Origin: Loxodes magnus
Taxonomy: Eukaryota > Ciliophora > Karyorelictea > Loxodida > Loxodidae
NCBI GenBank assembly: GCA_946699065.1
Contig: CAMPDV010001285.1
Span: forward strand, 60,976 to 124,975
Length of the DNA stretch: 64,000 bases
Direction: 5' to 3'
The notes under the pieces were generated by a model. The model worked only from the letters and a program-made list of their open reading frames with translations. It was not told the origin of the DNA and made no database searches. The translations under genes and the position numbers were made by a program. Shown here in pieces: positions 6,760 to 64,000 of the stretch; within the stretch, counting starts at the first letter, position 1; each line of letters begins with the position of its first letter.

Positions 6760-7491
6760 ATTTAGATAGAATATTCCAAGAATATACAGTTCTTTATTAT
6801 CTGTAGCTATATCTAGTTAGTATAATTGAATCGTATCGGGAAGTAGAGATAATACGATAAAGATATGGGACTTAACAACTGGCTAGTGTAAGAGTATTTT
6901 ATAGGGACATACGAATTCTTTATTATCTGTAGCGATTTCAAGAGACCAAAAAAGGAATCGTATAGGGAAGTTCTGAAGGTACGATAATGATATGGAACTT
7001 AGCAACTGGTTAGTTAAAAAGTTCTTTGTAAGGACACACAAATGGTGTAAATTCTTTAGCAATATCAAGTGATTGGAATTGAATTTTATTGGTAAGTTAT
7101 GATAAATCGATCAATAAATGGGACTAGCTAATGTAAGGGTTCTTTGTGGGGAGATAAAGATTCTGTGCTTTCTGTAGCGATTTCAAGTGACCAGAACTGA
7201 TCATATCAGGAAGTATTGATAAGATAATCAATATATGGGGATCCACAATTAGTCAGCTACTTCGAACTCTTCAAGGTCATTCAAATAATATATCAAATAT
7301 TCAATTTAGTAATGCTTCAAGTGTTTCAATTTCTGGATCATGTAGATATGGAACTTTTATATAGGTGAATGTATATAAACTCTTTAAGGCTAAAAAATGA
7401 TCTAAATTCTATAGCATTGGGTAAGGACAAGAAATAAATAGTATCAGGAGGATATGATAATACTGTGAGAAAGTGGAAAATAATAAGTTGA
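6760..7491 (+). pseudogene. WD40-repeat gene remnant, copy A
   Basis: Several WD40 blades are recognisable. The best reads NWIVSGSRDNTIKIWDL followed by TTGQCKSILQGHTNS, where the N-W pair is aac tga (TGA as Trp) and TTGQ uses TAG as Gln. Later blades (GTIMIWNLATGQLKSS, DQNWS.., SGSIDKIINIW, and the terminal VRKWKIIS followed by TGA) lie in different frames, so the copy carries several frame shifts. It is related to the less damaged gene at 18219-19030, and the same remnant sits at 34183-34904. WD40 propellers are protein-interaction scaffolds; the partner is unknown. Confidence 0.8.
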
Positions 7492-11514: not shown

Positions 11515-11587
11515 TGTAATTAATAAGAGTTATTATTAAGTATATCAGTTGTTCACTCTCATAGTTGATTTCCAAACTTGTCCATCA
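11515..11587 (-). CDS. Putative last exon of the microexon tail, copy A
   Basis: Immediately after the last intron-like segment (ending GGTTGTAG on the minus strand) comes an open stretch reading WWTSLEINYESEQLIYLI, starting TGA TGG. Copy B aligns without indels (WWTSLISNDESEQLIYLI), differing only by substitutions, and similarity drops soon after ACTCTTATTAATTA. Same-length conservation next to indel-rich intron-like sequence suggests an exon. Assignment to the upstream RING gene is inference. Confidence 0.4.
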
Positions 11588-11924
11588 CTACAACCATGAA
11601 ATTCTTACAACCTGAATTCACATTAATAAACTCACCCCCTTATTTCACAAAACATACACTCTATTACATTATCTTTAAACTCATTTGTACTAACTTATAT
11701 TAATTAAAACTTAAAAAACTTACCATCTATTTAATTAAAACGTAAAAAACAACCTTACATACTAATATTAACACCAATTATTACATTCTAAAATAAAATA
11801 TCTAAACCTAAAATACTTTTATCTAATATTGATTAAAATATATATTACTATTCGAAACTTATAAACATATGTCAAATTGTATATTACCAACTGATCAGTA
11901 AATACTTACGTTCTATACAGTTAA
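11588..11924 (-). other. Chain of non-repetitive mini-introns and microexons, copy A
   Basis: On the minus strand this flank divides into GT...AG segments of about 19-32 nt. They are separated by AAC, TTG, a 9-nt exon (TTTCGAATA), a 6-nt exon (ATAAAA), then AAT, TAT, ATG, TTA, AGT, GGG and GTT. Every separator is a multiple of three. Against copy B the separators align with substitutions only, while the GT...AG segments differ by indels of 1, 2 and 9 nt. Known spliceosomal introns start GT and end AG, and very short ones occur in ciliates. That these are spliced is inference. Confidence 0.5.
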
Positions 11925-13545
11925 GAAATATTAAAATAACTTACCTAAGTTAAGAATATTAAAATAACTTACCTAAGTTAAGAATATTAAAATAACTTAC
12001 CTAAGTTAAGAATATTAAAATAACTTACCTAAGTTAAGAATATTAAAATGCCTTACATCCTATAAGTTAAGAATATTAAAATAACTTACCTAAGTTAAGA
12101 ATATTAAAATAACTTACCTAAGTTAAGAATATTAAAATAACTTACCTAAGTTAAGAATATTAAAATGCTTACCTAAGTTAAGAATATTAAAATAACTTAC
12201 CTAAGTTAAGAATATTAAAATAACTTACCTAAGTTAAGAATATTAAAATGCTTACCTAAGTTAAGAATATTAAAATGCTTACCTTCTATAAGTTAAGAAT
12301 ATTAAAATGCTTACCTAAGTTAAGAATATTAAAATGCTTACCTAAGTTAAGAATATTAAAATGCCTTACATCCTATAAGTTAAGAATATTAAAATAACTT
12401 ACCTAAGTTAAGAATATTAAAATAACTTACCTAAGTTAAGAATATTAAAATAACTTACCTAAGTTAAGAATATTAAAATAACTTACCTAAGTTAAGAATA
12501 TTAAAATGCTTACCTAAGTTAAGAATATTAAAATGCTTACCTAAGTTAAGAATATTAAAATAACTTACCTAAGTTAAGAATATTAAAATGCTTACCTAAG
12601 TTAAGAATATTAAAATAACTTACCTAAGTTAAGAATATTAAAATGCTTACCTAAGTTAAGAATATTAAAATGCTTACCTAAGTTAAGAATATTAAAATGC
12701 TTACCTAAGTTAAGAATATTAAAATGCTTACCTAAGTTAAGAATATTAAAATAACTTACGATCTATAAGTTAAGAATATTAAAATGCTTACCTAAGTTAA
12801 GAATATTAAAATAACTTACCTAAGTTAAGAATATTAAAATGCTTACCTAAGTTAAGAATATTAAAATAACTTACCTAAGTTAAGAATATTAAAATGCTTA
12901 CCTAAGTTAAGAATATTAAAATGCTTACCTAAGTTAAGAATATTAAAATAACTTACGATCTATAAGTTAAGAATATTAAAATGCTTACCTAAGTTAAGAA
13001 TATTAAAATGCTTACCTAAGTTAAGAATATTAAAATGCTTACCTAAGTTAAGAATATTAAAATAACTTACGATCTATAAGTTAAGAATATTAAAATGCTT
13101 ACCTAAGTTAAGAATATTAAAATAACTTACCTAAGTTAAGAATATTAAAATAACTTACCCACTATAAGTTAAGAATATTAAAATGCTTACAGCCTATAAG
13201 TTAAGAATATTAAAATAACTTACCATCTATAAGTTAAGAATATTAAAATGCTTACAGCCTATAAGTTAAGAATATTAAAATACCTTACCTAAGTTAAGAA
13301 TATTAAAATACCTTACCTAAGTTAAGAATATTAAAATAACTTACCTAAGTTAAGAATATTAAAATAACTTACCTAAGTTAAGAATATTAAAATAACTTAC
13401 CTAAGTTAAGAATATTAAAATAACTTACCTAAGTTAAGAATATTAAAATAACTTACCTAAGTTAAGAATATTAAAATAACTTACCTAAGTTAAGAATATT
13501 AAAATGCTTACCAACTATAAGTTAAGAATATTAAAATGACTTACC
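11925..13545 (-). repeat. Minisatellite of intron-like units, copy A
   Basis: Nearly 60 units of 28-32 bp. On the minus strand each begins GTAAGT, GTAAGC or GTAAGG, has an AT-rich middle around AATATT, and ends CTTAACTTAG or CTTAACTTATAG, which resembles a 5' splice site, branch site and 3' splice site. Most units here are directly adjacent (AG|GTAAG, zero spacer). About a dozen are separated by exactly 3 nt (TTG, GCT, ATG, TGG, ATC, GAT, AAG, AAC in sense). The array begins about 85 bp beyond the last conserved codon of the RING/ubiquitin-like gene and on the same strand. Confidence 0.9.
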
Positions 13546-13629
13546 TAATTTAAAAATAAAAGTTTAGAAATGTAACGTACTTCCTTTAATTAGATTATGT
13601 ACCATCTACATTATTATAAAAAATTAACT

Positions 13630-15408
13630 CCATCTCATTTATAACTATTCCCCATCCATTATATTTAAAGATTGCATTGTCTTATAGTTATCTAACCTAT
13701 TGCCATTCTTATAGATAGCCAATGACCATTCGTATAACTTAGTTTATTCTTCTATCATGTTCTTTAGTTATCCGATAGTAGTGTCTTGCTTAACCACAAG
13801 CTTCACAGATTTATTATTCGGAGATATTATCGATATTTCGATTGCATATTTCATTATCCTTGCTCGTAACTCATTCAACTAACTCGTTAACTATTCTCTT
13901 TCCTCCAATAAAATTTATATCTAGTTCTCCAAATTAGATCTCTCCTATCGCAAACTCTCTATCTACTAACTAAACTCAAGATTTAATGAAATATAATCAT
14001 TATTAGCCTTAGTAACCACATTCAAATCACTCTCCTTCTAACTGTTTTACTCACTCAATTTATTGATTTAAACCCTTAATTGATCATTGTCCTTTCTCTA
14101 AAGATCAAACTCATTCTAAAACTCTCTTATCCTTTACTCTTTCTATAAATATTGCTTTTCATACTACTACTATTAAAATATATTCCTCTAGTCCTTCTCT
14201 TAAACAACCTATAACAACTCACTTATTCGCAATTTATATTAAACACACTCACTCGATAAACTATTTATTTACTCACTCAAACTCTTAGACTATTCCTCTA
14301 ACTTATCTTTATAACCTTATAACTCGAAATCTTTTTACTACAAGATAGCATTCTACTACTAGACCAAACTCTTTATTTATAATTATTGATCCTCTATTAC
14401 TTTCTAGTTACGAGATATTTATTCCCTCTAGTCAGTCAACAACATATCCTTATCTCTTATAACCTAAAGCAACTTTTATATTTATTCTTCACTTTTCTAA
14501 TTGACATTCTCCTACGATTTAACCTACAACTATAACTCCTTTCATAAATGCTATATAGTTCTCTAAAAAGATTATTTTTATTCTCTAACTCGCAACTCCT
14601 ATAGTGGCTGAATCTCCTTTATCATTTTCTCAAAGACCTAAACTTCCATATTCTTTAAACTAAGAATAGCCTTATACTAAGAATATTTTTACTCATCCTT
14701 TATTCACTTCTCTTATAACTATACCTCCAACCTCTCTATCTCCACCTTCTTTTTCTCACATTACTATATAGTAACCTATTACATTAGTCCAATACTCTTT
14801 AGTCTTTCAAAAAGATTATTTTAACCCATTTCCTACCTACACTATTCACCTTAGTCCTATACTCTTAACACCACCTCCTCACATGCTTACTCTAAACTTC
14901 TCTTGATCTTATCATAGATCTACATTATCTTTTTCCAATTTAACTTATAATCCTCAGACAATTACTTTTATCATTGACCTAAAACAGAAGAATATTGTAT
15001 CAACCTCTCCTTTATAACACTCAAAGTCATTTCCATACGAACTTACATAATAGGAACGATCTCCTCTTGTCTAACACATTGATGATCCTCATGAGAATCC
15101 TATTAGCATTTTTCACATATTAAGGCACTATCACTCAGACAATACAAAGCTAGAATCTCATTATGCTACTAACATATACTTAGTAAGTTTTATTTGGACT
15201 CCTCTTAAAGATGTAAATCTAGTATTTCCAATTCTTCAATTGGTCTATCAGTGATAATGTTGTGATTGTTGCATATGAACTTCTTTTAAACTTTGTAGAT
15301 ACCTTTCAAACATCTCTCACAGATGATACATCCACAATCACATCTTCTAGGCTTTTTAAGCTCTTAGTTGAAGCCTTTTTCGCAAACTTCACATTTAGAT
15401 GCTTGCAT
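13630..15408 (-). CDS. TRIM-like RING, B-box, coiled-coil, ubiquitin-like protein
   Basis: 593 codons in one uninterrupted frame. The start is chosen because MQASKCEVCEKGF opens a RING-type finger (CEVC, then CDCGCIICERC, then a CNNH). A B-box-like finger follows at about residues 80-120 (CQQHNE..ALYCLSDSALICEKC..DSHEDHQC). A Gln/Glu/Lys-rich coiled coil fills about 140-510. The end is a ubiquitin-like fold (about 518-590) with TTIGQLKNMIEEQT, LAIYKNGNRLDNY and LNIMDGEQLQM, matching the ubiquitin beta-grasp pattern. RING plus B-box plus coiled coil is the tripartite TRIM layout of E3 ubiquitin ligases; ligase activity is inferred. TGA is read as Trp at least three times (VLGQW, LQEKW, QHLWKE). 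A shorter paralog is at 41334-42566. The tail may continue into the microexon array. Confidence 0.88.
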
Positions 15409-18218: not shown

Positions 18219-19030
18219 ATGGAGAAAAAAGAAACACAATTTACTAAAAGTATTTTTTTACGAAAACTTCTAAGAACAAGAAACCATTCCCTTGGAAGAA
18301 TATCCCTTCTTCTATTTAAATACGAAATTCTGCCGAACTTATGCTTCTAAAAATTGATTTAAAAAATAAACTACGACTAATCTTAAGATAATTCTTTAAT
18401 AATTTTAGACTAAACTTTGACGGGTCATTCGGGATTCATTTATTCCGTAGCTATAACAAGTGATATGAATTGAATTGTTTCCGGAAGCCACGATAACACG
18501 ATACGAATGTGGGGTTTCCAGACTGGAAATTGTACGAGAACTTTAACGGGTCATTCGAATTCAGTTAAATCTATAGCTTTAAAAAGTGACATGAAATGAA
18601 TTGTCTCCGGAAGTTACGATAACACGATAAAGATACGGGATTTCCAGACTGGAAGTTGTACGAGAACTTTGAGGGGTCATTCGAATTCAGTTTTCTCTTT
18701 AGCTTTAACAAATGACATGAAATGAATTGTCTCCGGAAGTGGCGATAATACGATAAAGATCTGGTCTTTCTCAACTGGTCAGCTGATTCGGACTTTGGAG
18801 GGTTATACAGATGGTGTATCAAGTATTAAAATTAGTACTGATTCGAGTGCTATATTTTCTGGATCTTATGATGGAACGATTAAGATATGAAATTTTAATA
18901 AGGTGAGTGTATATAGACACTTAAAGGGCATGTAAGAGAAATATATTCTATAGCATTGAGTAAGGACAATAGATGGCTGGTATCTGGAGGAATGGATTCT
19001 ACTGTGAGAAGGTGGAAGATTGTGAGTTGA
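18219..19030 (+). CDS. WD40-repeat protein, five blades
   Basis: ATG at 18219 ([13 protein letters not shown]). Five WD40 repeats follow a 70-residue leader: [70 protein letters not shown], and [22 protein letters not shown]. They carry strands such as NTIKIW and GTIKIW. The Trp before IVSG is TGA in three blades and the Trp of GTIKIWNF is TGA, while other blades use TGG, so TGA is Trp here. The frame ends VRRWKIVS then TGA, probably a true stop. One base is out of register at about 18900 (see findings: a 14-nt GT...AG segment lies exactly there). Five blades is short for a closed seven-bladed propeller. Confidence 0.85.
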
Positions 19031-39336: not shown

Positions 39337-39409
39337 TTTAATTAATAAGAGTCATTATTAAGTATATCAGTTGTTCACTCTCATCATTCGAAATCAGACT
39401 CGTCCATCA
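39337..39409 (-). CDS. Putative last exon of the microexon tail, copy B
   Basis: Reads WWTSLISNDESEQLIYLI after the final intron-like segment. It aligns to 11515-11587 without gaps. Confidence 0.4.
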
Positions 39410-39732
39410 CTACAAACATGAAATCCTACAACCTGAATTCACATTAACAAACTCACCCCCTTATTTCACATAACATACACTCTATTACATTATCTTTAAA
39501 CCATTTGTACCAACTTATATTAATTAAAACTTACCATCTATTTAATTAAAACGTAAAAAAACAAACTTACATACTAATTCTTACTCCAATTATTACATCC
39601 TAAAATTAATATATCTAAACCAAAATACCTTTTTCTAATATTGATTAAAATATATATTACTATCCGAAACTTATAAACATATGTGTCAAATCGTATATTA
39701 CCACCTAATCAGTAAATACTTACAATCTATAC
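39410..39732 (-). other. Chain of non-repetitive mini-introns and microexons, copy B
   Basis: Minus-strand separators, in order: ATT, GTG, TTTCGGATA, AAAAAG, GAT, TAT, ATG, TTG, AGT, GGG, GTT. They sit between GT...AG segments of 19-33 nt (for example 19, 32, 29, 33 and 21 nt). The separator lengths equal those of copy A one by one. Intron-like lengths differ (21 against 30 nt before TTG/TTA). Confidence 0.5.
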
Positions 39733-41246
39733 AGTTAAGAATATTAAAATAACTTACCTAAGTTAAGAATATTAAAATAACTTACATACTATAAGTTAAG
39801 AATATTAAAATGCTTACGTTCTATAAGTTAAGAATATTAAAATGCTTACCAACTATAAGTTAAGAATATTAAAATGCTTACCAACTATAAGTTAAGAATA
39901 TTAAAATGCTTACGTTCTATAAGTTAAGAATATTAAAATGCTTACCAACTATAAGTTAAGAATATTAAAATGCTTACCAACTATAAGTTAAGAATATTAA
40001 AATGCTTACCAACTATAAGTTAAGAATATTAAAATGCTTACGTTCTATAAGTTAAGAATATTAAAATGCTTACCAACTATAAGTTAAGAATATTAAAATG
40101 CTTACGTTCTATAAGTTAAGAATATTAAAATGCTTACCAACTATAAGTTAAGAATATTAAAATGCTTACCAACTATAAGTTAAGAATATTAAAATGCTTA
40201 CCAACTATAAGTTAAGAATATTAAAATGCTTACGTTCTATAAGTTAAGAATATTAAAATGCTTACCAACTATAAGTTAAGAATATTAAAATGCTTACCAA
40301 CTATAAGTTAAGAATATTAAAATGCTTACATACTATAAGTTAAGAATATTAAAATGCTTACCTAAGTTAAGAATATTAAAATGATTACAAACTATAAGTT
40401 AAGAATATTAAAATGCTTACCAACTATAAGTTAAGAATATTAAAATGCTTACGTTCTATAAGTTAAGAATATTAAAATGCTTACCTAAGTTAAGAATATT
40501 AAAATGATTACAAACTATAAGTTAAGAATATTAAAATGCTTACATGCTATAAGTTAAGAATATTAAAATGCTTACTCTCTATAAGTTAAGAATATTAAAA
40601 TAACTTACATCCTATAAGTTAAGAATATTAAAATGACTTACATCCTATAAGTTAAGAATATTAAAATGCTTACGTTCTATAAGTTAAGAATATTAAAATG
40701 CTTACCAACTATAAGTTAAGAATATTAAAATGCTTACCAACTATAAGTTAAGAATATTAAAATGCTTACCAACTATAAGTTAAGAATATTAAAATGCTTA
40801 CGTTCTATAAGTTAAGAATATTAAAATGCTTACCAACTATAAGTTAAGAATATTAAAATAACTTACTAGCTATAAGTTAAGAATATTAAAATGCTTACAT
40901 ACTATAAGTTAAGAATATTAAAATGCTTACCTAAGTTAAGAATATTAAAATGATTACAAACTATAAGTTAAGAATATTAAAATGCTTACATGCTATAAGT
41001 TAAGAATATTAAAATGCTTACTCTCTATAAGTTAAGAATATTAAAATAACTTACATCCTATAAGTTAAGAATATTAAAATGACTTACATCCTATAAGTTA
41101 AGAATATTAAAATGCTTACGTTCTATAAGTTAAGAATATTAAAATAACTTACAATCTATAAGTTAAGAAATATTAAAATAACTTACCTAAGTTAAGAATA
41201 TTAAAATAACTTACCAACTATAAGTTAAGAATATTAAAATGACTTA
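39733..41246 (-). repeat. Minisatellite of intron-like units with single-codon spacers, copy B
   Basis: About 50 units. On the minus strand each is a 28-29-nt GTAAG...CTTAACTTATAG segment. Most are separated by exactly 3 nt, drawn from TTG, AAC, GAT, AGA, CAT, TTT, TAT, ATT and CTA; a handful are directly adjacent. The block AAC, GAT, GAT, AGA, CAT, TTT, zero occurs twice, so larger blocks have duplicated. No spacer is TAA, TAG or TGA in sense orientation. Confidence 0.9.
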
Positions 41247-41333
41247 CCTATTTTAAAAATAAAAGTTTAGAAATGTAACATACGTCCTTTAATTAGATTA
41301 TTTACCATCTACATATATTATAAAAAATTAACT

Positions 41334-42566
41334 CCATTTCATTTATAACTATTCCCCATCCATTATATCATAAGATTGCATTGTCTAGTTGTCTCCTAAC
41401 TTATTGCCATTCTTATAGATAGCCAATGACCAGGAGTATAAATTAGTTTATTTTTATATAATTTCATATAGCTATTTGATAGTAGTGTCTTGCTTAACCG
41501 CAAGCTTCACAGACTTATTATTCGGAGATACTATCGATATTTCGATTTCTTTATTCGTGACCTTTTTCCATCAAGATTAGGAAGCTTACTATGGCTTAAC
41601 TTTTTATACCTCTTAAGGAGTAACTGGCTTCAACATATTCTATTACTTAACCTCAGATAATTATTACTAACAATAATGATACTATGTCGCAAGCACCTAT
41701 TTCTCATTCAACAGATCCTAAACCTATTTCTCAATACTCATCTTCTAACTCTATAGATCCTATAACTACTATCCCATCTGCACAATCTTTCTGTCATTGT
41801 CACCACTAAACTAATTAAGCTTCTTCAAAGCATCCTTAGTTACAACCAACTCATTTACTATTTGTGCTCTCTCCTAGTAAATACTCGATACTTGTTAACT
41901 CAACTACTAAATCTAAGCTAGATAATCACCGTTAACCTGACTTAATGTTTCCATCTAGACTCTCAGTCTATCCCTCTCCTCAAACACATTAACCGATACC
42001 TAGGAGATCTATTAAAAGATTTCTTAAGCTTCCTTAACTAACTTTGATACCAACTACTCCACTCTAGGATGAATACTACTTTCTTATGTGGCTTATTAAA
42101 CATTACCCTATTTACTGATCTATAGCTACTAATACTTGAGATATCCTAACTATTAACTTAACTATCTAGCCAACTATTTTAACTCTCTCTATTTAACCAA
42201 ACTATTCCCGAAAACATATTGGTTGAGATTATTTATTAGCTATTAGAGAAAGCTAGTCTGCTACTCAGACAACATTGTATATGCCAAACGGATTTTAGTC
42301 TAATAAGCTTAAAATAAAGTAATGCTACTTTGTATCCCCTTTTACTCTAAACACTTTAACAACTGAGTATCCTCTGGTAACTAATAAGGACGCAACTTAT
42401 GGATCTATTAGCAAGTTTAGTCGAAACATTTGATACTTAAGTTTCTCTAATACTAATCAGATGCGCAAGTGAGACAAATATTGTGCTAACATGGAAGGAC
42501 CATAGGGACTTTCCTCTATCCATCGAAATCTCCATTACAAGATTGACATTTAACAACCTAGGACAT
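41334..42566 (-). CDS. RING, coiled-coil, ubiquitin-like protein (shorter paralog)
   Basis: 411 codons in one frame. The start MSQVVKCQSCNGDFDG opens a RING finger: CQSC, then RKVPMVLPCQHNICLTC, then KCFDQTC, the C-x2-C...C-x-H-x3-C-x2-C pattern. There is no B-box. A Gln-rich coiled coil spans about 130-330 (FEERDRLRVQMETLSQ and on), and a ubiquitin-like domain ends it (EIEISIVSPNNKSVKLAV, TTIKQLYEIIQKQT, LAIYKNGNKLGDN). TGA-TGG gives Trp-Trp just before that domain. It shares the ubiquitin-like end, and the array beyond, with 13630-15408, while the N-terminal halves differ greatly. An E3 ligase role is inferred. Confidence 0.85.
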
Positions 42567-60291: not shown

Positions 60292-63200
60292 AAGCAAAAT
60301 TATCTTAAGAAGTCTTATCAATGATAGCTGTTTTAGTGCTAATTTGATTTATTTACTCTGCTTGTATTTTCGTAAGATTAAAATTCTTCTTAGTTTTCTT
60401 AAACTTCTAGCTTACTTTCCCTAGATCTTATACTCATTAACTACTATTTTCTTTTAAGTTGCATAAGCAATTTTTAAGTTTCAATGCTTTGCTTATCTAC
60501 TGTCTCTGCCTCAATTGCATTTGATAGTAGCATATCTGTTGATATTTGCAGCCTTTAGTTTTAAGCTTGGATATGTTGCTTTAATATGCTAGGATCTATC
60601 CTTAGTTTATATTAGAACCTAAACAAATTAACTAAATCAGGTTCTATTTATTTTAGCAGCTTTTTATACCTAGACATGACTACTAGCCCTATAGTTAGAA
60701 TGATCACTATACCTACTAAAAGTATTACTTGCAAAGTAATTCTATGATTATCACTTGCATTTATAGATATTCCTGATATAGTAACCTACTAATGCTACTA
60801 GTAAAAGAAGAATAAACTATAGTCAGTTAACTTTCTAGTAAGTAATTACCTTTTTTATTAAAACTAAGCAAAAGTAAAGAAGGTAATAGAGTATATGATA
60901 GCATTGACTAATAGGATACAATTAAGTATCTAGTTAATAAGTACTAGAAATTAGCAAATCAAAGTCTTTAGAATTATGAATCATGTCTTCTACTTTATAT
61001 TAATGGTGTCTTTCTGAACTTCCTATCAATGTGGACGAATCAATATAACTAGTGGAACATAGAAAAATAAAGCTAAATTACTAAATATTATAGTTATTAT
61101 ATGAGGTTAAGAAAGACACTACTTGGAACAATCTAAGTCTAAAAAGGATTCTCAAACTTCTATTTCAAAGTTTAGATTACTATCCCTTCCATAACTACAT
61201 CTCATTATTTAAGCTACTAAGAAAATTACTCCTATCAAAGTTATTTCTATCAAAGCTGGAGAGCATTTATAAGTTAGTTTTCCTTTATTTCTAAGTAACT
61301 TCAAATTATAATAGAAAAGCTATTGCCAATAATACTGTTAAGAAACCAAAACCACTTCATAGCTTTATTATACCTCAGAACGCTAAATTTGTTACTCTCG
61401 TTGTCAAATAACTAAACGAAATAGACTAAGCAGAACTTATTTAGTATAGAAGTGGTCTTAAATCAGGTCCTAATAAAATTTATTAGGCAAATTAAATAAA
61501 AAGTATCTATGAAAAGAATTCATCTTCACTTGTCATTCATACTTCTTTGCTCAAAATTTCCTATTTTCTAGATTTTCATATTTTAAATCCAAAAAATGAA
61601 GTTAGCAAAGCTATACTAAATAGTACTACTTATTATATTATTATTGCGTTGTATCCTCTCTCATATTTTTTAACTCTCCGATCTGTAAAATCACAGTTAT
61701 CACTATACAGTTCAAATGAATCTTTAGGAATGTTAGTTGTATTAAATTTCGTATAAGTTCATTATGTTTAGTTCAAACGATGGACAAGTTTGGCAGTACT
61801 CAAGATAAGGCACAAGATGTAGATTTCAGTTAGAATCATAGTAATTAATCATAAAGAAGAAGTTCTGATTATCTCTAAAGATGCTATTTTTCTCAAATTT
61901 AATGCTTCCATTACATCCTAAAAATTTTCTTATTTCTCATTTTTTAAATCAGATTAGCTGGAATATAGAAGTCTAAGCCTTCTTCTATGCATTGCTAAAG
62001 ACCATATGCTAATATTATTGGCTATTCTAAGTAGTAGCAAGAAGTGAAATGAATAGAGCTATTACATTACTCTTGTATTTCTAGTAATTTTTAGCCTTTT
62101 TCTCCTACATAATCAATTGGATTTATGGTCATTAAACCATTTAAAAGTCTTCTTACAGCTTTGAATACTTCAGGCTAAATTTAAGCTTCGTAATTATAAG
62201 CATTATATAAAAGCACAAAATTAGTATCTCCCTCTTACCATCCTATTTCCATTAGTTTATCAACTGAAAACCAAATAAAATTAGCAGCAGGTGAGGAAAA
62301 GATAATTTTGATTTCCCTTTGCATGATTTGATTTGCAAGTTGTTCATATACTTGAAGATTTCATACATTATCTCCTTTTATGAAAGTAGTATCATAAGAG
62401 TTCATTACAGTTCTATAAGTTTCTTAAAGATTTTATATGCTAAAATTTCAAATTTATCTATTTGAAGGCTCGAAATCTTCTAAAACAATTCTAACTTTAT
62501 TTAAAATAATTTTTTCAGTTAATTTGAGGTACATTATACCAAATAAATTTCAGGAAATGTAGTTATCTAGAACATTACTATAGAGATTGGTGTTGTTAAG
62601 TTGATCTTTCTTTACTTGTAATAATATAAGGAATATTAATTCCAAGTTATTAGAAAGTAAAATAAACTGGACCTCAATTTGATATAATCAAAGACGCTAA
62701 ATGGCTAATTCCTATATCACTTTATTATCTGCAAGTACTTATAAAGTAAAGCTTAAGTTGAAATACAACCAGCCATAGGACAGTGGATTCTCTTTAAGTA
62801 AAGATCTTCCTGGTATTATTTTTTCTGTGTTTATGTAAGAAACTACACAAGAAATGTGATAAGAGGGTAATTAAAGAATCGATTAAGCTGAAGACATTTA
62901 TGATCCGTTAGAGAAAAATCTATATAAAAATTATCAGGTGGAGTGTAAGTTTGTCCTGGATATAGCACAGAATTCTTCTATATTACCCAATCCTAAGATA
63001 TTTGAAAAACTTCATCAGGCTATCCTTTCTAGTTATTATAAACAGAAAACTAGGCTTTTATTTTATTATTTTGATTAAAGAGTTGTTTGAGCATTTGCTT
63101 ATTGGTAAAGTAGCTTTCTTAAGAAACAAAAGTTAAGGAAAGTGTCGTATAGTATGCAGTCAATTCGAAATAGGATTTCGGAATAAATCCTTTCGGAGTA

Positions 63201-63960
63201 ATTCCAATAACTCCGTCGTCTAGAACATTGATATGAATTTAGGTATTGGATTAAACTAATTAAGTTACTTCTGGATTAATCAAATAAGAAGATTCTAATC
63301 CTAATATCTAAAGGTATTTATCAGCTGTAATTTATAAAAGGTAAATTTTAAAGCATAGCGAAAGCTTATCAACAAATATCTGGTTATAGTAAACTACAGG
63401 AGCAGCATAGAGTCTTAGCATCTTAGTGATTTATTATGGAGTAGTAATTTATATTTATTAGTTGTAGCATTAAGTTGAATTTAATCCATAATAAGAGTGT
63501 AGAGGAATATTAACAGTGTAGTTAGGTTTATTTGATTAGTATCAAAAGTCTCAAGAGGTTTATAAAATGTTTATTCTTATTGATATATTAACGAAAGCTG
63601 TTTAAAGTTTAGTTTGTCTAATAAAAGTTATAGCGGTTGTGGTTCCTATTGATAGGTTGGCATAATTAAATATAGATTTTGTTGATAGAATTACTAGTCT
63701 GTTTGTATAGCGTAGTGACTGTATTTAGGTTAGTTTATAGGTATAATAGACATTAAAGGTGATGTGTAGAATAATTTGAATGGTATAAGTTTGAATTTGA
63801 TTTTGTATGTGTTAGATTTGTTTTGTTATAAGGATAAAGGCACTATACTGTACTTATCTATTGTATATGATACATAGTGATCTAAGTAAGTTGTTGTTGA
63901 CTCTAAAGATAGCAATAAAGATTTGATTATAATGAATAAATAGTTGATATATTAAATGAA
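60279..63960 (-). CDS. Multi-TM surface protein family, copy C
   Basis: Most complete of the three family copies. It keeps HYAIQTDQQFYQQNLYLIMP in frame, and keeps the 244-bp segment lost in A (IPYIITSKE...NVLDNYIS...EDFEPSN). It then has VWMTSEDEFF and ILLGPDLRPLLYQI, membrane helices, a last helix QVILLVGIVIILTIGLVV, and a cytoplasmic tail (SRYKKLLKQIEPDLVNLF, then MLLSNAIEAETVDKQ). The tail ends at TGA 60279-60281. The N-terminal start present in A (MFPFLNQ) is not found, because similarity stops at about 63962. At least two single-base shifts remain. Role unknown. Confidence 0.65.
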
Positions 63961-63962
63961 CT
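60904..63962. repeat. Partial third copy (C) of the long repeat
   Basis: Matches 1-2835, same orientation, with a few percent substitutions. It carries 244 extra bp (62425-62668) and lacks about 13 bp near 62910. Sequence after 63962 is unrelated A/T. Confidence 0.9.
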
Positions 63963-64000
63963 ATTTGCTTTTTTAATAATAAAAAAAAAATATTTTATAA

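Follow-up and report, generated by a model that had tools for sequence, protein, structure and literature searches.

The micro-exon genes (MEGs) of Schistosoma are described as carrying 10–20 exons per gene of 6–81 bp (3–81 bp in the abstract of the same paper), mostly of 15 bp, separated by introns of 100–5000 bp, and as encoding secreted products (PMC10526429). Like the Loxodes magnus genes described here, they form multigene families of variable proteins whose numerous, very short exons mostly have lengths divisible by three (PMC10526429). Aphid bicycle and megacycle genes share with the Loxodes genes their many microexons (more than 100 in megacycle) and rapid evolution, and also a uniform phase, nearly all internal bicycle exons beginning at codon position 2 (PMC9168663). 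Exons exactly one codon long are present in Ncam and Drosophila troponin T (PMC8042270), and zero-length exons, where an acceptor and a donor are juxtaposed, occur at the ratchet points of Drosophila (PMC8605326, PMC5126111). Short introns like those reported here are typical of heterotrichs and karyorelicts; the available text of the L. magnus study gives RNA-seq introns with a mean of 19.3 nt, a mode of 17 nt and 93% at ≤25 nt, annotated by a pipeline that took introns of ≤40 nt from mapped reads (PMC11441545).

The locus compared here with these systems lies in a window of 64,000 nt of L. magnus (GCA_946699065.1, contig CAMPDV010001285.1, positions 60,976–124,975), the whole stretch of DNA that was analysed, to which all positions below refer. 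From its sequence and that of related loci we consider it highly probable that the tails of RING/ubiquitin-like (Ubl) proteins are encoded by long series of same-phase 3-nt exons between spliceosomal introns of ~17–38 nt.

The RING/Ubl gene of the window and its sister copy

The main coding exon (Table 1) was translated with table 27, a ciliate-type genetic code that assigns Gln to TAA and TAG and Trp to TGA. Its product has a RING-like N-terminus, a central region that on visual inspection appears coiled-coil, and, at the C-terminus, a SUMO/ubiquitin-like domain. The Ubl fold is recognized by Pfam profiles for Rad60-SLD (5.2e-10, 39.4 bits versus a cut-off of 23.8) and ubiquitin (1.7e-7, 31.4 bits versus a cut-off of 25.4). 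The zf-RING_UBOX profile matches at 1.6e-4 and 22.0 bits, under its curated cut-off of 25.2, and the Cys/His pattern of the RING-like region looks intact by eye. The encoded factor is probably ubiquitin-ligase-like, and its tail probably changes fast.

On the 3′ side of this exon, from 41332 to 39410 on the minus strand, lies the run of GT…AG segments that the first-pass annotation had reported there. It comprises 62 segments, close to the ~60 estimated, with lengths of 19–36 nt, a somewhat wider range than the 19–33 nt given before: three precede the array, 48 are near-identical array units and eleven non-repetitive segments follow, the fourteen non-array segments all differing from one another. 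The claim that the segments are separated by 3 nt, rarely by 0, 6 or 9, is borne out by the 61 slots between them: 53 are 3 nt long, six have zero length, and single slots measure 6 and 9 nt. A3 passes into the array through a zero-length junction (AATAG/GTAAG), and the 47 slots inside the array consist of five further zero-length junctions (TTAG/GTAAG) and 42 triplets (TTG, AAC, GAT, AGA, CAT, TTT, TAT, ATT, CTA). None of these array triplets in the window copy is TAA, TAG or TGA, as had been noted, but GAT/GAT yields TGA twice, which in the inferred reading phase of this copy reads as Trp.

The exons between the T introns measure, in order, 3, 9, 6 and then 3 nt, and their joining in phase 1 would encode …KKGLYVEWGL. 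Since the introns are in phase 1, a triplet is not itself a codon, and each codon spans an exon junction. The earlier proposal of a tail built from one-codon microexons is supported with respect to in-frame exons and a pattern far above chance, but not with respect to triplets being codons. The Leu/Asn/Asp-rich tail that had been predicted is likewise replaced, because codons straddle the junctions, by the in silico spliced sequence …WNGLDQRWQTFLSIELVVERWQTF…ELVELYCVSDKKGLYVEWGLMDESDFEWWE-stop (TGA = W); the predicted tail peptides end in …YVEWGLMDESDFEWWE and relatives. With every array triplet included, the stretch 41360–39375, which measures 1,986 nt in the genome, would give a spliced product of 237 nt.

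Table 1. Features of the tail-bearing RING/Ubl gene and of its second copy, in window positions
Feature	Position	Strand	Description
Main coding exon	41333..42566	−	1.23 kb; phase-1 end, TGG A
Start codon of main exon	42566	−	placed by inspection
Proximal tail	41248..41332	−	introns A1–A3 with 3-nt exons ATG and GAC; from the parse of 29 copies
Intron A1	41332-41309	−	
Intron A2	41305-41287	−	
Intron A3	41283-41248	−	
Array	39727..41247	−	48 intron units; unit mostly GTAAG[C/TT/TC]ATTTTAATATTCTTAACTTATAG
Distal tail	39410..39723	−	eleven non-repetitive introns, T1–T11
Intron T1	39723-39705	−	
Intron T2	39701-39670	−	
Intron T3	39660-39635	−	
Intron T4	39628-39600	−	
Intron T5	39596-39574	−	
Intron T6	39570-39538	−	
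Intron T7	39534-39514	−	
Intron T8	39510-39482	−	
Intron T9	39478-39460	−	
Intron T10	39456-39433	−	
Intron T11	39429-39410	−	
Final exon	39375..39409	−	35 nt; TG ATG GAC GAG TCT GAT TTC GAA TGA TGA GAG TGA
Stop codon (TGA) of final exon	39377-39375	−	
Second window copy	11553..13646	−	segmental duplicate, ~27.7 kb away
Second copy, exon end	13629	−	followed by introns A1–A3
Second copy, array	13544-11913	−	57 units
Second copy, introns T1–T11	11909-11588	−	
Second copy, final exon	11587-11553	−	

In the second window copy zero-length junctions make up 46 of the 70 slots, the others being 3 nt (22 slots), 6 nt (one) and 9 nt (one). Its zero-length units end at the 3′ side in TTAG, compared with TTATAG in the 3-nt units. 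The window also contains segmental duplications, one between ~1.9–10 kb and 29.4–37.5 kb (~27.4 kb apart) and one between 47–2834 and 60946–63965 (~61 kb apart), which may be a route by which the gene family spreads. Separately, tandem repeats of 126–127 bp at 6828–7069 and 18413–18764 have, by eye, the look of coding WD40-type repeats.

Reading frame and distal peptide

We parsed 29 complete copies of the tail, requiring GT…AG ends for segments but not multiples of 3 for slots; omission of the near-identical L052, L054, and L058 leaves a non-redundant set of 26, and L061 and L064, which have no start anchor, were left unparsed. In L037, L039 and the second window copy the bases of the T6–T7 slot were assigned to a longer T7 intron, with no letters changed, which raised the number of copies with a closing frame from 22 to 24 of 29. 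The parsed segments are 17–38 nt long, within the intron length range of the species; array units vary from 25 to 33 nt, and array introns, at 27–31 nt, are longer than most Loxodes introns. Of the 950 slots in the non-redundant copies, 941 have a length divisible by 3, including two, of 12 and 24 nt, that probably contain missed introns; this is in keeping with the earlier suggestion that gain or loss of a unit preserves the frame. The phase is 1 at both ends, the upstream exon ending TGG A/GT and the last exon beginning TG/ATG; with this uniform phase and very short exons in multiples of three, these are micro-exon genes in the broad sense.

With the segments removed, the frame set by the Ubl domain can be followed to a conserved stop in most parsed copies: 24 of the 29 (21 of the 26 non-redundant ones) reach one shared TGA, compared with 11 of 29 for the unspliced frame. 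The final TGA itself is present in all 29, which were picked by the flank just downstream of the stop. The spliced frame fails to close in L031, L035, L039, L059, and L065, of which L031 lacks the AG of the T5 and T11 acceptors and is possibly a broken copy. L031 (C116, 2709–6291) is also the longest stretch of the 29, at 3,582 nt, with 95 unit junctions, many of them zero-length. Changes in length by a number of bases not divisible by 3 occur in 79 instances over 9,186 nt of introns outside the array, compared with 4 over 2,149 nt of slots and final exon (Fisher p 3e-4, for copies that share ancestry and are not independent). The penultimate Trp codon of the final exon is TGA in 17 of 22 copies and TGG in three.

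Other indicators of frame are less direct. Base composition by codon position, with two genes as background, slightly favors phase 0 over phase 1 for 294 array triplets (log-likelihoods −1114.7 and −1130.1), which counts against our reading. Exon positions −2 and −1 before a donor tend toward A and G. We gave the phase-0 lean little weight, because this bias mimics such a signal. Junctions within the array show no avoidance of in-frame TGA (15, versus 15.7 in shuffles); this too speaks against inclusion of the array, if weakly, since an internal TGA is Trp in this code. A search for a spliced retrocopy with the 26-mer AATTATATGTTGAGTGGGGTTTGATG gave no match in the genome at ≤3 mismatches, a result that has no bearing on splicing either way.

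The strongest evidence comes from the distal tail. All eleven tail slots are of regular length, in phase 1, in 22 of the 26 copies, and LYVEWGL is exact in 18 of these 22, the remaining four having one change each. We compared four groups, namely the window family, L068 (C10), L073 (C41), and L033 (C241); L072 (C67) is close to L068, with intron cores 0.79 identical, and L032 is alike to L033 by eye. The order of introns and 3-nt exons is preserved across the groups although intron lengths differ (e.g. 33/21/29/19/24/20 nt in the window and 29/24/27/23/27/26 nt in L073), and GT…AG boundaries are kept in L068, L073, and L033 despite low core identity. In every pair of groups, 14–16 of the 18 bases of six 3-nt slots are identical, compared with a mean of 5–6 when shuffled, and none of 2,000 shuffles was as high for any pair. 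In contrast, the intron cores are 0.50–0.61 identical between groups versus 0.48–0.53 in shuffled cores; in four of the six pairs they lie above nearly all of 200 shuffles, so some intron homology is left. The encoded peptides, YVEWGL, YREWGL, YCEWGL, and YLEWGL, thus conserve Y-x-E-W-G-L across introns that have diverged to chance or slightly above. Between the window and L068, the differences GAG/GAA and TTG/CTT are, by reading, synonymous changes spread over exon junctions. We see no good way to explain this conservation without the joining of 3-nt exons. The conserved peptide speaks for the distal tail; the interior of the array is backed by spacing, frame, and variability, which leaves the inclusion of the repeated units, which might be skipped as a block, less certain than that of the distal tail.

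Spacing, family size, and divergence in the genome

We counted chains of three successive junctions of the form TAG-N(k)-GTAAG in the 705.7-Mb assembly, as overlapping matches rather than genes, with the reversed sequence as control. Chains at k = 3 number 26,459 (control 553) and at k = 0 they number 3,170 (control 0), compared with none at k = 1 (control 0) and one at k = 2 (control 0). Laxer patterns gave nine at k = 4 (control 1), of which four lie in one simple repeat and four are copies of one sequence, and 592 at k = 5, below the 955 of the control. The first 100 k = 3 matches listed include several distinct intron sequences. Matches to TTAACTTATAG-N(0–12)-GTAAG total 1,235, versus 58 in the control, and the spacing is exactly 3 nt in 90 of the first 100 listed. 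With the 3′ ends of the main array masked, the window and 15 loci (L031–L045) contain 21 chained AG-N(k)-GTAA pairs at k = 0 and 32 at k = 3, compared with 0–6 at each remaining spacing through k = 15. The longer runs at k = 3 among those listed are located in the tails and in one array of the window family. A spacing of 3 or 0 nt is therefore the rule among three-junction chains of the assembly, and on this law we rejected chance GT and AG occurrences in AT-rich DNA.

The first-pass annotation described the structure at a single gene, but besides the sister copy there are 84 places in the assembly that match a 31-base tail pattern at ≤3 mismatches, a count that separately assembled alleles could inflate, and related RING/Ubl genes with other introns. 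The tail DNA of the window gene has matches at at least 40 places (40 of 112 first-look candidates scored). Every array read on its 5′ side (the window family, C241 in L033/L034, C59, C15, C77, and C41) is preceded by a RING and/or Ubl frame, as called by eye except for the window protein, which was assigned by profiles. For L067 and L068 the fetched stretch reached only the end of the Ubl region, for L032 and L072 it covered the array and its downstream side, and the arrays at C4, C27, C52, C69, and C76 were left out of this survey. The architecture is widespread in the assembly, where a large family of RING/Ubl genes appears to carry it.

In a second subfamily (L066, L067, L069, and L070) the protein is, by eye, a smaller RING/Ubl-like one (for L067 only the end of the Ubl region was seen), and the tails are runs of differing introns, mostly of 17–20 nt (e.g. 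the 17-nt GTAATAAAATAAATAAG), with 3-nt exons; in L066, L067, and L069 these runs are followed by an array of ~24-nt units. The array of L070 (C77), behind its RING/Ubl-like gene, is degenerate, with many mutated donors and irregular slots, and may be a decaying tail. Another type of array, in L073 (C41), is built on GTAAGTTAAAGTTTAAG/GTGAAAATGAAG, in very short pieces with ambiguous splice boundaries.

Diversity per site was measured in the 26 non-redundant copies, using only copies of modal length for each element. The first slot, ATG, does not vary in this set and is identical in all 29 parsed copies, whereas the non-array slots from A2–A3 to T3–T4 have diversities of 0.22–0.46 and the final exon 0.24, compared with 0.01–0.12 for introns. 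The contrast is greater within the array, at 0.68 for 294 triplets versus 0.033 for 145 units of 29 nt. Exons next to the array thus evolve several times as fast as their introns, a pattern suggestive of diversifying change in this portion of the tail. The distal slots from T4–T5 to T10–T11, at 0–0.10, vary about as much as introns at such depth, and the distal motif may have been held over longer times, a reading limited by the fact that copies of such families also exchange sequence. In phase 1, pN/pS is 2.9 for all tail slots and 4.0 for the proximal slots (22 of 26 copies), versus 0.67 and 0.72 in the two alternative frames; such ratios locate the variation within a slot and cannot alone choose the frame. 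The final exon has a ratio of 0.74 (22 of 26 copies). The value of ~1.1 for the Ubl stretch (25 of 26 copies) is unreliable because at least one row, L035, is visibly out of register in translation.

Proposed splicing of the tails and comparison with known systems

We propose that the spliceosome would remove the introns one by one, so that the upstream exon grows by a single triplet at every step. Splicing would be intron-defined and serial, every removal presenting the next donor, and at a zero-length AG/GT junction the donor would be recreated with nothing added, as at recursive-splicing points. Arrays would grow by tandem duplication of an intron plus triplet, with one residue gained or lost; the unit of change being an intron plus three bases, the shift would be of one residue and the frame would never be broken. 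Zero-length units, which add no residue, would be free to expand. The arrays would consist of young units and the flanking non-repetitive introns of older, diverged ones. The array and its adjoining slots would form the fast-diversifying part, plausibly the recognition tail of an E3 ligase-like family, with the distal YxEWGL constrained.

Alternatively, only the non-repetitive microexons may be real, the array being a satellite within a single long intron that extends from the A3 donor to the acceptor preceding T1; the array triplets would in that case be absent from the mRNA. The near identity of the units would fit satellite-like expansion, as would the dominance of zero-length junctions in some arrays (in the second window copy, 46 of the 70 slots) and the absence of TGA avoidance at array junctions. 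However, the 3-nt spacing is kept in several unit sequences, with chains at 1, 2 or 4 nt almost absent, and it is constant although units vary from 25 to 33 nt; the array triplets are hypervariable, as the adjoining slots are, and a 1.5-kb intron would be extreme in a species where 93% are ≤25 nt (PMC11441545). We regard this alternative as unlikely. It is similarly improbable that the units are spliced while selection acts on the number of introns, as a splicing delay or expression brake, rather than on the peptide: zero-length units add splicing work without residues, dozens of times per gene, but both the raised change in the slots and the conservation of the distal peptide suggest that it is the protein that matters. 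Selection of this kind does not exclude one-codon-sized exons, our preferred reading.

The gene might also stop after the Ubl domain, the downstream DNA being an intergenic tandem repeat that resembles introns by accident. In favor of this, the unspliced frame of the first window copy is open deep into the array, with the first in-frame TGA at 1,905 of 1,986 nt, as TAA and TAG are sense and the array unit contains no TGA. Conservation of the peptide across diverged introns, frame closure in 24 of 29 copies, slot-specific variation, and the conserved final exon and stop nonetheless make an intergenic repeat very improbable. Translation of the array without splicing, for which the open frames could equally be cited (1,905 of 1,986 nt in the first window copy and 1,782 of 2,104 nt in the second), was rejected as scarcely credible, since without splicing the final TGA is in frame in just 11 of 29 copies, close to the third that chance would give; in addition, the near-identical L051 and L052 share one spliced tail despite a length difference of one base. 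Ciliates excise short DNA segments. Removal of the segments from DNA, as internally eliminated sequences (IESs), would have a precedent in the short-segment excision documented in ciliates (PMC11441545), but the segment ends are GT…AG and the segments are still present in the assembled DNA, which is somatic if the assembly is that of the MAC. The available text of the L. magnus study reports a somatic (MAC) assembly of 706 Mbp, a size that the 705.7-Mb assembly fits, and no canonical IESs (PMC11441545), and with those GT…AG ends we rejected excision at the DNA level as highly unlikely.

Serial splicing of 3-nt exons, if confirmed, would place these genes, with dozens of 3-nt and 0-nt exons, near the lower limit of systematically used exon size. 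It would challenge ideas on how the spliceosome handles neighboring introns, favoring strictly serial, intron-defined splicing. It would also show how a protein can be lengthened or diversified in steps of exactly one residue, an intron plus three bases being what is duplicated. Fast slots beside conserved introns would reverse the usual contrast between exon and intron. A further proposal, possible but on balance doubtful, is that the tail is grown and edited residue by residue in a large RING/Ubl family, each one-residue exon being individually skippable; if so, one gene could produce a combinatorial repertoire of recognition tails with the frame always intact. Standard annotation is likely to miss such structures because aligners hardly place 3-nt exons and repeat maskers remove arrays, and similar genes may therefore be hidden elsewhere.

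Among the best-listed open-access papers on Loxodes, single-codon or zero-length exons, recursive splicing, and microexons or tiny introns of protists, none was found to describe 3-nt exons in series (the search covered neither subscription papers nor supplements), and the available text of the L. magnus intron study does not mention them (PMC11441545). The one-codon exons of Ncam and Drosophila troponin T are, as described, lone exons in ordinary genes and form no serial arrays (PMC8042270). Drosophila ratchet points, in the accounts available, split long introns, unlike the Loxodes zero-length units, which are ~27–28 nt long with many in succession. Aphid bicycle genes are described as putative effectors, and the available text describes neither 3-nt or 0-nt exons nor tandem intron units nor RING/Ubl domains (PMC9168663); the Loxodes genes are set outside that family by their other domains and ciliate-type code. 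They also lie outside the Schistosoma MEG family, having exons of 3 nt, introns of <40 nt and a RING/Ubl protein; dozens of successive 3-nt exons between introns of ~17–38 nt in RING/Ubl genes differ from the MEGs as described. Schistosome micro-exon genes and aphid bicycle genes are nonetheless the closest kinds, and, going by the available descriptions of both, the Loxodes tails would represent an extreme micro-exon gene set apart from either.
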